From: a virus
Direction: 5' to 3' (one strand)
DNA length: 22,979 bases
Virus record (IMG/VR): IMGVR_UViG_3300047547_000443
Coordinates: 1-22,979 of that record
In this document: one piece after another, positions 252 to 22,978 of the stretch
How positions within the stretch are numbered: the stretch's first letter is position 1
Layout: every line of letters begins with the position of its first letter
Position numbers and translations under genes: made by a program
Notes under the pieces: model-generated
What the model was told of the DNA's origin: nothing
Database searches by the model: none
Seen by the model: the letters and a program-made list of their open reading frames with translations, nothing else

Positions 252-2635
252 GGTGTGTCGGTGTAGGTCAGGCTGTTCGTCTCAATCATTTGCCCCAGCA
301 CGAGGTTGAACCCATCGACGAGCAACGTCTGATTTGCCGTGGCCGTCCCGTCATATACCGCCCCGAGAGCTAGGTCAAGGTCAGCCGCAAGGGACAACCC
401 CGGGCCTTCGACCAACTGGCCCAGCAGAACCTCTGCCCACTCGGCCATTGTCAGAGCTTTGACGCCCCACTCGACGCTGTAGGTGCCACTGGCGTCCATC
501 GTCGTGTCGTTGCGATCGAACCAAACTTCGGTCGCGCTCGACAGGTCTTTGAACTGAAAATGATTCGAGGTCGTGACCTTCACCCGCCGCTTTTGATCGG
601 TGTCCTGCCGGCTGTTGCCATACGGCTGCTCGAAATGCAGCGTCCGCGGGTCTTTGCCCTCGCCGTTGTAGATCGCAAAGTCCTCTTCCTTGCCGAAGTA
701 AATCGCGTCCGTCGGATAGCGCCCAGCCGTTGCCCCGCGCTGGTAGTCCAGCGCGTCAGAATCGTAGGCCGCGAGTTCGACCTCGATGTCGAACGTCCTA
801 GTCGCCGGCTGTGCGAAATACCCGCCCTCGGCCTTGTGGAACCACAGCCCGGGCACGCTGTGGGTGTTGGCCGATGGGCTGACCCTGCGCTGGCCCGTGA
901 CCCCGATTAGATCGAACTCGTCCTCCGCGCTGACCGCCATTTGCTCCGCGTTATCCACGTCAAAGCGCACGCGCAAGATCGCCCGGTCGGGCGCGATGCG
1001 CGTCCACGTCACGATCTGGCCGTAAATGGGGAAGCTGTCCCGCAGCATAATCTGGCGGTAGGCTTGAACCGTCGAATCCCATGTCCACCAGACCTTGAGC
1101 GATCGGGCCGTGGGTTCGGGCTTGGCCACCGCACAAAGAAAACCATCGTCCTCGCGCAGGCCCGTGGGCAAGACCAGCAGCCGGGGCTGTGCCGCGGGGA
1201 TGGCAAAGGCCGAGGTGCCGGATTGGTCGAGAAAGGCCGGCGTGAGAAAGAAGTCCGGCGGGGGAACGTAGTCGTTAGACTCGTCACGGGTTTCCTCCAG
1301 CACGAGCGTCAATTCGACGTCGGGCTTGATCGGGCCGCCGATCTGGCGCTCGGTCACGCGGCACAACCGGTCGGTGATTCCCAACTTGGCCGAGGTGACG
1401 AACACCCGGCCCCCGGGCTGGAGCGTCTCCCACTTGGGCAGCAATTTCACGGTGAAGACGAACGGGGGTTTGCCCGCCTTGATGCCAACGCGCTTGGCCA
1501 CGATCTTTGCCACCTCGCGGTCGGTGATAAACGGGTAGTTCACCTGACGATCGACCGACTGGCCGACGACCGCGGCGTTGGCCGCGTGATCGTAGGGCTC
1601 GACCCCTTCCTCAAATTTGTTCGCCCGATCGGTGAAGACCAGCCGCGTTGAGTTCCACGTCTCGCTGTAGCCGCGATTGACCGGATAGGGCTCGTCGGTG
1701 AAATCGTCGTCGCCCAAGTGCGGCAGGCCCGTCGTGTCCTCCTTGCGGATTAAGGTCAGCCCGATCTGGCCGGCGACGAATCGCGGAGCGGCATCGACGT
1801 AGGGTAGCAACTTGCCGATGACCTCGCGCACGGTCTGAACGCTGTCAAAGACAGGGCTGGCACCCACGCCCTCGCCCACGACGGTATTGCACGCGGCGAT
1901 AAAGTCCGCCTGATTCAGATGCGCGGGGTCAAGGCCCATGCCATAGAGGGTGTTCGTCAGCCAGTCGTAAATCACCTCGGGCAAGATCGCGTCGCCGTTG
2001 ATCTCGTGAAAGACGTAGGCCGTGGCCGCCGCTGCCCCGCTGCCAAAGGTCACGGCTGGAGCGCTGGTGTAGCCCGTGCCCTGTGTGTTGACGACGATCG
2101 ACGTAACGACGCCCGCGGTAAGCACCGCCGTCGCGCTCGCGCCCGTGCCACCGCCGCCGGTCAGAATCACCGACGGTGGGCTGCCGTAGCCCGTGCCGCC
2201 GGCTGTGACGGCAATGCGTGTCACCCTCCCGGTCAAGGGCAAGACCGAGGGAAAGCGGCTGACGAGAAACAACAAGGTCGGCGGGGTCGTCTGGGTGCCG
2301 AACGCCACGTCCTCGCAAACGGCGTAGGCCAGCCCAGCGTAGCTGGGCATGGGCGCGGTGACCGGCCCGAGGCCTTGGTTAATCAGAATCGACGCCAGCA
2401 GCGGGTCAACCGTTTGGCCGGTCGTTCCCCAGTAGAACCGGACGGCACCGATCGTGGTCGTCAGATCGGTCTTGCCCTGTCCGTCCATCGCGCTTGACCT
2501 GTAGATCGGCCCCGTCCAGATCACGGTGTCGCCGTTCTTGATCTCGTGCAAGACATCCACCGGCCCGCAACAAACGACCTGTGCGATCGAGCCGAAGTAG
2601 TTGAACCCCGTTGTGACTTTGCTGGAGCCGCCCAT
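248..2635 (-). CDS. Tail tip attachment protein, J-like (Phage-tail_3 type)
   Basis: A 795-residue protein that likely forms the tail tip and contacts the host. The N-terminus ([20 protein letters not shown], then [19 protein letters not shown]) is the usual opening of this family. Residues 138-208 are two glycine-rich repeats ([20 protein letters not shown] and a second [13 protein letters not shown]) that interrupt the family sequence. Then come [37 protein letters not shown] and [20 protein letters not shown], typical of the tail_3 region, and a C-terminal part with beta-rich sequence. It starts on the ATG sharing one base with the previous stop and ends in ATGA with the next gene. Confidence 0.85.
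2012..2224 (-). repeat. Region encoding two glycine-rich GTGYxSxPxV repeats
   Basis: Two tandem units within the tip protein, each of the form VTxIxVxxxGTGYxSxPxVxxxGxG followed by an Ala-rich stretch. The same unit appears at the start of the next gene at the left window edge. Confidence 0.75.
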
Positions 2636-10862: not shown

Positions 10863-11213
10863 TTAGCCGGCGTAGCCGCGTCGGGCACCGAGCTTCAACA
10901 GCCGATCGACGACCGACTGGCGATTCTTCGCCGGGTCTTGATCGGGCACACCGTTGATCTGGGCCAGCAGCTTCGTCACTTGCGCGTTATACGTCCCGCC
11001 GCCTTTCTTGTCCAACACGGATACGATCGACAGCCGAAAGTTCTCGAGTTGGGCCAAGCTCGCCCGGGCCTCAATGCGCTCGTCCCGCTGCTGGGCCAGA
11101 CGATGAAAAAGCCGAAGCCGGTATAGGCTACTGCGCCTCAGATCGGCATCGGCATGTCCAACGGAAAGTAGGAACTCGAAGACCTCGGCTAGGCCTGCTG
11201 TTCGGCCTTTAGC
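10863..11213 (-). CDS. T-part of the tail chaperone, made by probable -1 frameshift
   Basis: An open frame in the -1 phase relative to the upstream chaperone. After the upstream stop, the first possible ATG, GTG or TTG lies well inside the coherent sequence FRLSIVSVLDKKGGGTYNAQ, so independent initiation is unlikely. The best shift site I see is GGAAAAG (11219-11213), resembling the lambda GGGAAAG: the A-site AAG slips well to AAA, but the P-site GAA to GGA pairing is imperfect. The fusion would be about 235 residues. The T-part ends four bases before the tape measure ATG. Frameshifting is inferred from gene order and frame. Confidence 0.65.
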   Translation of the reverse strand, partial: AKGRTAGLAEVFEFLLSVGHADADLRRSSLYRLRLFHRLAQQRDERIEARASLAQLENFRLSIVSVLDKKGGGTYNAQVTKLLAQINGVPDQDPAKNRQSVVDRLLKLGARRGYAG

Positions 11214-11569
11214 TTTTCCATCGCGTCGCCCAAGACCTTGTCCAGCACGCCGCCTTGACCCATCGCTTTGAGCGTGTCCGCCTGCCACCGGAACCACGTC
11301 TGAAAGGAGGTAAAATTTAGCTGCCTTCCTTTGTTCATCACGGCGATGAACGAATCTTCGGACAGCCGGGCAACCCAGTCCGCCGGGCGATCGGTGTAGA
11401 TCGCGACCTCAGCCTTGGGCTTTCCCCAAGCCTTGCCCAGCCCGTCCATGTCGCAGATCGGGATGCGGCGGACAAAGATTTCCTCGTCGGGTTTGACCTC
11501 GACGCCCTTGGGCTGGCGGAAACTGACCGTCAATTTCTCGCCGTCCATCAGGTCGGTGATCTCGCTCAC
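11189..11569 (-). CDS. Tail assembly chaperone, gpG-like
   Basis: A 126-residue protein starting at a GTG (MSEITDLMDGEKLTVSF) that overlaps the preceding stop. It precedes the tape measure gene, as chaperone gpG does in lambda. The beta-rich first half (KLTVSFRQPKGVEV, then EEIFVRRIPI) and helical second half fit the group. A second open frame in the -1 phase overlaps its 3' end and has no good start of its own, which is the hallmark of the G/GT frameshift pair. The protein would coat the tape measure during tail assembly and be absent from the finished tail. Confidence 0.75.
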   Translation of the reverse strand: MSEITDLMDGEKLTVSFRQPKGVEVKPDEEIFVRRIPICDMDGLGKAWGKPKAEVAIYTDRPADWVARLSEDSFIAVMNKGRQLNFTSFQTWFRWQADTLKAMGQGGVLDKVLGDAMEKLKAEQQA

Positions 11570-21099: not shown

Positions 21100-22470
21100 T
21101 CAAGCTACAAGTATCACCCGACCGAGGGCAATCATTTCGTAGGCTCCGGTCAGCGCGTCCACGCCGTCGTCGTATCGGCCCTCGGGAAAGTTCTCCAACT
21201 CGCGCAATAGATCGTCGTTCCACGGGCCTTTCACCATTTTGATGTTGCCCGCCTCGGCCTGTGCGCTCACGGGCTTGCACCGCGTCTGCTTGTCCCCGGT
21301 CTTCGTCTCATACCGAACGTTGAACCCGTCGAGCTTGACCGCCGTAGATCGGGCCTCATTCACGCCCGCACTGCCCGGGTCTTGCTGGTAGCCGACCGAG
21401 ACGTTGGTGCCGTCCTGACGGGCCGTCCCGACCATCGCACGGTCAACGGCCAAGGGCGTGGCGAACATCCGCTCGAAATGTTCGATGTAGTAAACGCCGT
21501 CGAGATCACGCGAGAGCTTAACCGTCGCCGTGCTGTCGGGGTCTTTGCCCGGCTTTTGCTCGCCCGCAGCCCTGTCCCAGAAACGCACCCGAGCGCTGAC
21601 CTCAGCCGGTGCGGCCTCGACGAACCCGCCAAAGTAGTGGCGCTTGAAGAACATGCCAGCACTGGGCCGGACATTCCAGTTGCCGTTCAGCAATTGCTCG
21701 CGCTCGACCAGCGGCAGCGCCTTGAGGTTCGCCAAGTAGCTCGGGTCTGACAGCAGGAGGATTTTGTTGTCGAAGACCGAGGCCGGGATGAAGGTCACGC
21801 TCTTGGGCTCGGCCTCAGCCCCAAACCTCGCCACCAGTTCTTCGCGTTCAAACCCCCAGACAAACTCGTCGTTGTGCCGGACGAACCAACGAATCACGCC
21901 CGCGCGCTTGGGGTTGGGCAGGCCCGTGCGGTCGTCAATCCACCACGCGATGAACTTCCGCACCCAGCTATCGGGGTCGGGGTTGGTCGTGGCCCGGATG
22001 TAGCCGGCGATGCCCGACGTAGATCGGTTGCGCCCGACCATATACCAGAACTGCTTTTCGGTGAAGTGCGTGAGCTCGTCGAAGCCGATGAAAGGAATTT
22101 GCGACCCCTGCCAGTCCAAGCGGTTCTTCTCATGCTCCATGTGCGCGAACTTGATCTTCGCCCCGGAGGGAAAGCCCCACGTCAGGCTTTGCCCCAGCCC
22201 GCGGCCACTGACCAGCGGGTAGAGATCGCCCGCCGTATCCCAAAGGCCGCCCTCGACTTTGATCTGGGTGGTCGTGCGGCGAAAGATCACCCCGCCAAAG
22301 GCCGGGTTGTGAATGTGCCGCAGGGGTTCGAGCAACAGCCCGTAGGACTTCCCGCCTAGTTAACCACCAGCGGCCCCTCCGTAAATTGCTATGTCCGCGT
22401 CGGTGCTTAGGAACGTCGTTTGCGGGCCTGCCTGAGGTTTTATTTCTGTGCCACTGGTGATTCTAACCAC
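21100..22470 (-). CDS. terL: Terminase large subunit, interrupted by an in-frame stop in Walker A
   Basis: ATP-driven DNA-packaging motor and nuclease that loads the genome through the portal. The N-terminal segment from a GTG at 22470 runs through IKPQAGPQTTF and ADIAIYGGAAGG, then meets TAA at 22362-22360. The same frame continues with LGGKSYGLLLEPLRHIHNP and stays open to 21100. Downstream are Walker B (IGFDE, residues 83-87 of the post-stop part), a TTNPD motif, and an RNase H-like nuclease domain with D254, QDPG (318-321) and a terminal YDDGVDAL. Without nine bases in the Walker A region the product would be about 453 residues, a usual length. Because the stop separates the start from all catalytic residues, the gene needs recoding or is broken. 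The GTG start is uncertain; it overlaps the HNH stop, suggesting coupling. Confidence 0.9.
22354..22365 (-). other. Candidate stop-bypass (recoding) site in terL
   Basis: On the minus strand the codons are GGT TAA CTA GGC, preceded by GGT and followed by GGG AAG TCC. A ribosome stopping on GGT and resuming after GGC would skip TAA CTA and make GGAAGGGKS, the standard terminase P-loop. GGT and GGC are normally decoded by one glycine tRNA (anticodon GCC), so matched take-off and landing codons are present. Reading through TAA instead would give GGAAGG-X-L-GGKS, which formally fits GxxxxGKS but adds three residues between strand and loop. The role is inferred; only the sequence arrangement is directly seen. 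Confidence 0.45.
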
Positions 22471-22978
22471 CCCCCTTCCGCTTGAGCCAGCGTGCGGGAT
22501 AGTGCCCGCGTTTGAACTGGCCAGTTGTGCCTGTCGAGTCGGCGTAGGATTTGATGCCCAGCTTACGACGGTTGCGGGCAATGGTTGTTTTGTTCGTCCC
22601 GGCCAGATCGGCCAGTGCGTGATCGGGCATCTGGCCAAGCTGGGCCACGATCTCCGGAGCAAGCGTCAGCCGGTTCCAGCCGGCCATTGGCGGGACGACG
22701 CCACGGCCTTTGGCGTGCATGTCGCGGTTGTTGTCCCCGCGAGTGCCGGTGAAAAGATGGCCGGGATTGCAGCATGGTGGGTTGTCGCATCGGTGAAGCA
22801 CGCACTTGCCGTCAGGGATTGGCCCGTTGGTAAGTTTCCACGCGACCCGGTTTGCCTTGGTCGTTCCGTCCTTTCCACCGACTACGCCGTAACCTTTTTC
22901 GTTCGTGGCCGCCAGCCAAGGCCAGCACTCGTCCGGCCCTCCGCGCTTGACCTTGCTCCAGAATAATTCGGCGTCCAC
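22463..22978 (-). CDS. HNH homing-type endonuclease
   Basis: A 171-residue HNH nuclease of the kind found free-standing or in introns of phage genomes. The N-terminal part has the usual opening (FWSKV, then CWPW near residue 18). The nuclease core lies at about residues 60-84, with H62, the CNPGHL segment (N71, H74) and the GDNN tail at 81-84. Cysteines at 59, 65, 69 and 70 could support a metal site. Residues 107-142 read as a helix-turn-helix (ALADLAGTNKTTIARN), a likely DNA-recognition domain. It starts at a GTG one base from the window edge; the first residues fit the family, but a longer form cannot be excluded. Its stop overlaps the probable GTG start of the terminase gene. A mobile role, cutting terminase DNA of rival phages, is inferred from family and position. 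Confidence 0.88.
   Translation of the reverse strand: MDAELFWSKVKRGGPDECWPWLAATNEKGYGVVGGKDGTTKANRVAWKLTNGPIPDGKCVLHRCDNPPCCNPGHLFTGTRGDNNRDMHAKGRGVVPPMAGWNRLTLAPEIVAQLGQMPDHALADLAGTNKTTIARNRRKLGIKSYADSTGTTGQFKRGHYPARWLKRKGGG

Follow-up and report, generated by a model that had tools for sequence, protein, structure and literature searches.

Candidate stop-hops in phage terminase Walker A loops and their association with homing endonucleases

The interrupted terminase gene

The window, that is, the whole stretch of DNA analyzed here, is an entire IMG/VR record of 22,979 nt and a single metagenomic contig. Its minus strand encodes an HNH endonuclease (22463–22978; Pfam HNH_3, 3.5e-12), whose start lies past the contig end and whose stop codon (22465–22463) overlaps the start of the terminase gene terL. 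The N-terminal part of terL (22363–22470, minus strand) comprises 36 codons, from a GTG start at 22470 to ...DIAIYGGAAGG, and was assigned from its open frame and its homology to the N-termini of relatives. The original prediction had placed an in-frame TAA within the Walker A motif of this gene, and we confirmed it on the minus strand at 22362–22360. The strand reads GCC GCT GGT GGT (22365–22363), TAA (22362–22360), CTA (22359–22357), GGC (22356–22354), GGG (22353–22351), AAG, TCC. The remainder of terL (21100–22353, minus strand) is intact and encodes an ATPase domain with Walker B (IGFDE) and an RNase H-like nuclease (WDRAA, DDGVD), as indicated by Pfam and by alignment with loci L228, L057 and L105. 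Its frame is open down to a TGA at 21102–21100 and matches Terminase_6N (2.9e-24) and Terminase_6C (8.8e-14). With both domains and their motifs, the product classifies as a Terminase_6 large subunit. The terminase homology that had been claimed for both sides of the interruption is borne out by the N-termini of relatives before the stop and by these Pfam matches after it.

Relatives of the window terL at 44–60% identity carry an unbroken YGGAA[GF]GGK[ST] loop in every case where the P-loop is present, and the loop was intact in 77 of 78 relatives in a set fetched without regard to it. Since the loop of the relatives is uninterrupted, the window carries a 9-nt insert, TAACTAGGC (22354–22362, minus strand) or an equivalent alignment. 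Removal of these nine bases yields the usual P-loop, YGGAAGGGK[ST], just as had been expected. Comparison with 32 other sites, described below, suggests the following division of the minus strand. The GGT at 22363–22365, encoding the second of three loop glycines, would be the take-off codon, with the TAA right behind it. The sequence TAACTA (22357–22362) would be an untranslated gap, and GGC (22354–22356) the landing codon, followed by GGG AAG TCC (G-K-S).

Two other explanations of the stop were rejected. TAA ends 9 of the 24 listed open frames in the window and is the normal terminator of other genes there, so it is not reassigned. A self-splicing intron is rejected on the small size of the insert (9 nt) and on Rfam, which at the gathering score gave no match to a group I or group II intron in the window and eight endonuclease-bearing or related loci. 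When the insert of the window was searched for as an exact sequence, no further copy turned up.

Elsewhere in the window, the tail module contains overlapping frames (10863–11569, minus strand; 11189–11569 and a −1 frame to 10863) that resemble a lambda G/GT-type tail assembly chaperone, with candidate −1 slippery sequences at 11426 (GGGAAAG) and 11318 (AAATTTT).

Stop-containing inserts recur in terminase Walker A loops

We searched IMG/VR for terminase loops carrying an insert of 2–32 nt, with the prefixes TAT and TAC, and then for loops with TAA or TAG. The TAT-prefixed scan was complete and left the inserted bases unconditioned. As the scans covered these two prefixes and, when directed at stops, TAA and TAG, the catalog is incomplete and its count is a lower bound. 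It lists at least 33 distinct terL genes, counting that of the window, in which a short insert interrupts the same Walker A loop; the other matches to the broad pattern, mostly unrelated proteins or terminase loops that are intact, were not counted.

The inserts follow one plan. In all 33 listed genes a stop codon comes directly after one of the three glycines of the AAGGGK run (Gly 5, 6 or 7 of YGGAAGGGK). A second GGN lies 5–10 nt past the start of the pre-stop glycine codon in 32 of the 33. The predicted hops measure 5 nt (11 sites), 6 nt (8), 7 nt (3), 8 nt (3), 9 nt (6) and 10 nt (2), though the search pattern permitted inserts of 2–32 nt. Examples include GGC TA GGC AAG (L111), GGT TGA GGT AAA (L126), GGC TAAT GGC GGT AAA (L228) and GGC TGAAGAG GGC GGG AAA (L071). 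Two consecutive stops are present in L190 (GGC TGATAA GGC AAA) and L108 (TAG TAG). The proposed hop would rebuild the canonical loop at 32 of the 33 sites, the sole listed site without a GGN landing being L114, which would land on CGA.

The placement of the stop exceeds chance: in the complete TAT scan it was the first codon after a glycine in 19 of 20 distinct disrupted terL loops, where about 1 was expected (binomial P ~1e-24). At the 12 sites on Gly 7, the third glycine, the search pattern itself required a landing GG; at Gly 5 or 6, where the pattern left the landing free, the GG was present in 20 of 21 sites. No stop-free terL insert was seen in the complete TAT scan, from which the loop seems intolerant of extra residues. 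Among the matches listed for the TAC scan, the only one was a 2-nt homopolymer in L140.

In three groups of separate records the insert is identical (L047/L082/L104, L149/L208/L229 and L062/L083/L129). One scan of GTDB (TAT prefix, TAA and TAG stops) returned eight chance matches with no terL among them and thus no such site in bacterial genomes. Queried with the C-terminal portions of L163, L241 and L240, phage records yielded relatives, and the eight inspected, which are related to L163 or L241 at about 57–62% identity, all have intact loops.

Two further interrupted terL genes were noted. L395 (~422–470, plus strand), from a set without the landing condition, carries a 4-nt insert, GGT TAG C AAA, with the stop directly after the loop glycine, no GGN landing and a subsequent frame open for 421 aa. 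In L044 (~4001), terL is broken just ahead of the Walker B segment (FDELTSF) by an intein-end-like sequence.

The downstream frame is preserved

From the GGN-AAR onwards, nearly all loci on sufficiently long contigs have an open TerL frame of ~370–500 aa, and the frame is kept after the insert irrespective of insert length modulo 3. Exceptions are L127, which is broken, and L071 and L230, where another stop follows shortly after the insert. The nearest terL to that of the window (L228, 62% aa identity) carries the 7-nt insert GGC TAAT GGC; owing to this length its frame relation differs from that of the window, while the design of stop and glycine is kept. A second complete terL, which had been named as evidence that would speak against a functional interrupted gene, was searched for and not found: 17 of 18 records searched had one terminase match each, and no intact second copy was seen in their contigs.

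The best evidence for long maintenance of the insert is provided by the clade of L115, L133, L241 and L250 (tree support 100), all four of which have the insert at the same glycine. Within this clade dN is ~0.16–0.28 and dS is ~1.7 or saturated, with mainly synonymous changes both before and after the stop, whereas simulated neutral drift at divergence of this order introduced ~14–18 new stops per gene. An insert at the third glycine is shared by L240 and L053/L121, between which protein identity is down to 44–48%. On the terL tree as a whole the insert needs 15 state changes, at least 9 of them forced by well-supported branches, so it was repeatedly gained or lost. Comparison of the loci thus shows a recurrent sequence pattern followed by preserved frames.

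The dN/dS values of L062/L086 and L230/L241 were set aside because the N-termini are identical; for L062/L086 the low value may therefore predate the insert. Over the first 25 terL codons of L061/L062/L070 and L064/L092, synonymous differences are less frequent ahead of the stop than behind it, which could be due to co-conversion with the insert or to constraint on the mRNA.

Glycine codons tend to match across the stop

The GGT take-off and GGC landing codons of the window can be read by the same tRNA. Across the catalog, the two codons belong to one wobble class (both pyrimidine-ending or both purine-ending) at 27 of 32 sites; among the glycine pairs of intact loops the share is 62% (P=0.012). 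The pyrimidine bias of the take-off codon alone is not significant (P=0.09). We looked for helper signals as well. Shine-Dalgarno-like sequences are not enriched at insert sites over intact loops (P=0.15), and RNA structure upstream or downstream does not differ from that of intact loops; neither kind of stimulatory element is common to the insert sites.

Endonuclease genes next to interrupted terL genes

The original prediction tied the stop to the neighboring HNH gene, and the statistics back this link. An endonuclease gene or remnant lies directly upstream of terL in 10 of 33 listed insert loci and in 2 of 194 intact ones (P=6e-8). A Pfam scan of the upstream open frame in 29 insert loci identified HNH_3 in six and GIY-YIG in two, and endonuclease tails are left upstream of terL in L190 and L228. 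The C-terminal tail of the window HNH protein is 60% identical to the remnant in L228. Several subfamilies are represented among the upstream endonucleases. L070, L071 and L190 encode related GIY-YIG-type proteins, yet their terL genes are not closely related. In about two thirds of the insert loci, no endonuclease gene adjoins terL.

L071 and L088 contain a second copy of the terL N-terminus upstream of the endonuclease, which ends inside the P-loop. Between this truncated copy and the copy leading into the stop insert, 14 of 28 codons differ synonymously and only 1–2 otherwise. Such truncated copies fit an endonuclease that targets the P-loop and travels with a recoded, insert-bearing terL start. 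It is plausible that the insert would confer immunity to the neighboring endonuclease.

Relatives of the window HNH protein (L271–L350) are mostly encoded away from terL. Only those in L318 and L323 lie near a terminase loop, both loops are intact, and in L318 the HNH gene is upstream of the intact P-loop. The combination of HNH gene and intact P-loop, which had been named beforehand as counting against the prediction, is found in L318.

Other upstream sequences deserve mention. L411 and L414 have endonuclease-like sequence ~600 nt upstream of intact terL loops, and in L196 (1798–2403, minus strand) the gene immediately upstream of the insert-bearing terL encodes a serine recombinase (Pfam Resolvase), at the position that an endonuclease occupies in other loci.

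Proposed mechanism and alternatives

Sequence comparison suggests that the stop in the window lies in a minimal translational-bypass, or stop-hop, site, a reading to which we assign a probability of about three in four. The ribosome would read terL to the P-loop glycine GGT and stall with TAA in the A site. The peptidyl-tRNA-Gly would then release GGT and re-pair with GGC, six bases beyond the end of GGT, and decoding would restart at GGG AAG TCC, giving an unmodified Walker A loop, YGGAAGGGKS. We infer the hop itself, its efficiency and its cause from this comparison. Known synthetic stop-hops are inefficient, at ~1%. As to the cause, HNH and GIY-YIG homing endonucleases, often encoded just upstream, may target the conserved DNA of the P-loop, and the insert would break this target while being invisible in the protein. 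Loci with the insert and no endonuclease might belong to phages that have lost the gene or to immune descendants.

The claim that the window holds a minimal stop-bypass element with glycine codons thus has strong comparative support in at least 33 terL genes with inserts of any length modulo 3, a stop after glycine, a GGN landing, intact flanks and maintenance within one clade; the matched landing fails at L114. Equivalent inserts at the same spot in more than 30 other phages suggest ribosomal hopping, and bypass is favored because one mechanism fits every insert length. By contrast, readthrough of the stop or ribosomal frameshifting, giving a TerL with one to three extra loop residues, is improbable. 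It would keep the frame in the window, where the insert is 9 nt, and the resulting GG-X-L-G-GKS still fits GxxxxGK[ST]; for L395 a +1 shift is simpler than a hop. However, readthrough with three extra residues, one of the alternatives raised with the original prediction, cannot account for the inserts of 5, 7, 8 and 10 nt, each of which would require a different shift. The double stops in L108 and L190 would also have to be passed, and extra residues seem not to be tolerated, given that the complete TAT scan has no sense-codon insert.

A dead TerL, whether a null mutation, a decaying prophage or a cheater phage, had likewise been considered. The stop does lie in frame in an essential motif, and L071, L230 and L127 have further lesions, but random null mutations would not place a stop after glycine in 33 of 33 listed genes together with a new GGN. 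The downstream frames are intact, one clade retains insert and frame at saturated dS, and the searched records showed a single terminase match each in 17 of 18 cases, all of which makes this explanation very unlikely. An assembly or sequencing artefact could be suspected from the status of the window as a lone metagenomic contig; inserts of the same kind in unrelated contigs and identical inserts in separate records render an assembly error extremely unlikely, and the records of L163 and L196 have IMG numbers that we take not to be of the metagenome type. The remaining alternative accepts the bypass and differs on its cause only: the hop would lower TerL dosage and the endonuclease link would be incidental. 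We consider this unlikely. About two thirds of the insert loci do lack a directly upstream endonuclease, but adjacent endonucleases are strongly enriched and two terL copies are truncated at the P-loop beside one. Moreover, dosage control would not require the same three codons every time. Returning to the bypass reading, we lean towards a natural class of stop-hops that evolved repeatedly in phage terminase Walker A loops. Homing endonucleases that attack the best conserved DNA of terL would have spread these sites or favored them by selection, and the hop would keep the gene both cut-proof and functional.

Comparison with known systems

What is known of bypassing in bacteria and phages comes essentially from T4 gene 60, and all known stop-hops are those of synthetic constructs (PMC5009743); according to this 2016 review, no natural in-frame stop-hopping was known. 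We found no paper describing stop-hops in terminase P-loops in the searchable open-licence literature. Together, the window and the other loci would represent the first natural stop-hops to be recognized, with a link to neighboring selfish cutting enzymes. If true, dozens of very short natural hops in an essential enzyme would mean that ribosomes can skip stops with almost no signal. The same hops would account for terL genes that automated annotation is bound to label as broken, and would serve as a compact and testable model for the influence of selfish endonucleases on essential genes.

The closest parallel is T4 gene 60 with mobA, which shares a glycine take-off codon followed by a stop (GGA-UAG), a matched landing codon, an essential phage gene and an upstream homing endonuclease, and for which protection from cleavage has been proposed (PMC5009743). 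In all 33 listed terL sites the stop is directly 3′ of the take-off codon, as in gene 60. Gene 60 differs in its 50-nt gap, its take-off stem-loop and its nascent-peptide signal (PMC5009743), whereas the terL sites have gaps of 2–7 nt and no common stimulator was found in them, and the event took place many times over. Synthetic stop-hops over matched codons work (Weiss et al. 1987, as summarized in PMC5009743) and, in that summary, likewise have matched codons flanking the stop and short hops of 5 or 6 nt, but they are laboratory constructs. The byp elements of Magnusiomyces capitatus mitochondria are also numerous short inserts skipped in translation; they are mitochondrial and present an unused codon in the A site, whereas the terL sites have a normal stop, occur in phages and affect one protein motif (PMC5009743). 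In Streptomyces phage Hau3 a bypass has been proposed in a terminase gene too, although at a UUA codon and not at a stop in the Gly-rich loop (PMC5009743). Finally, intron-less homing in phages (PMC2988022) similarly involves free-standing endonuclease genes beside a conserved target gene, while the terL target differs in holding a stop-containing insert that the ribosome would have to skip.
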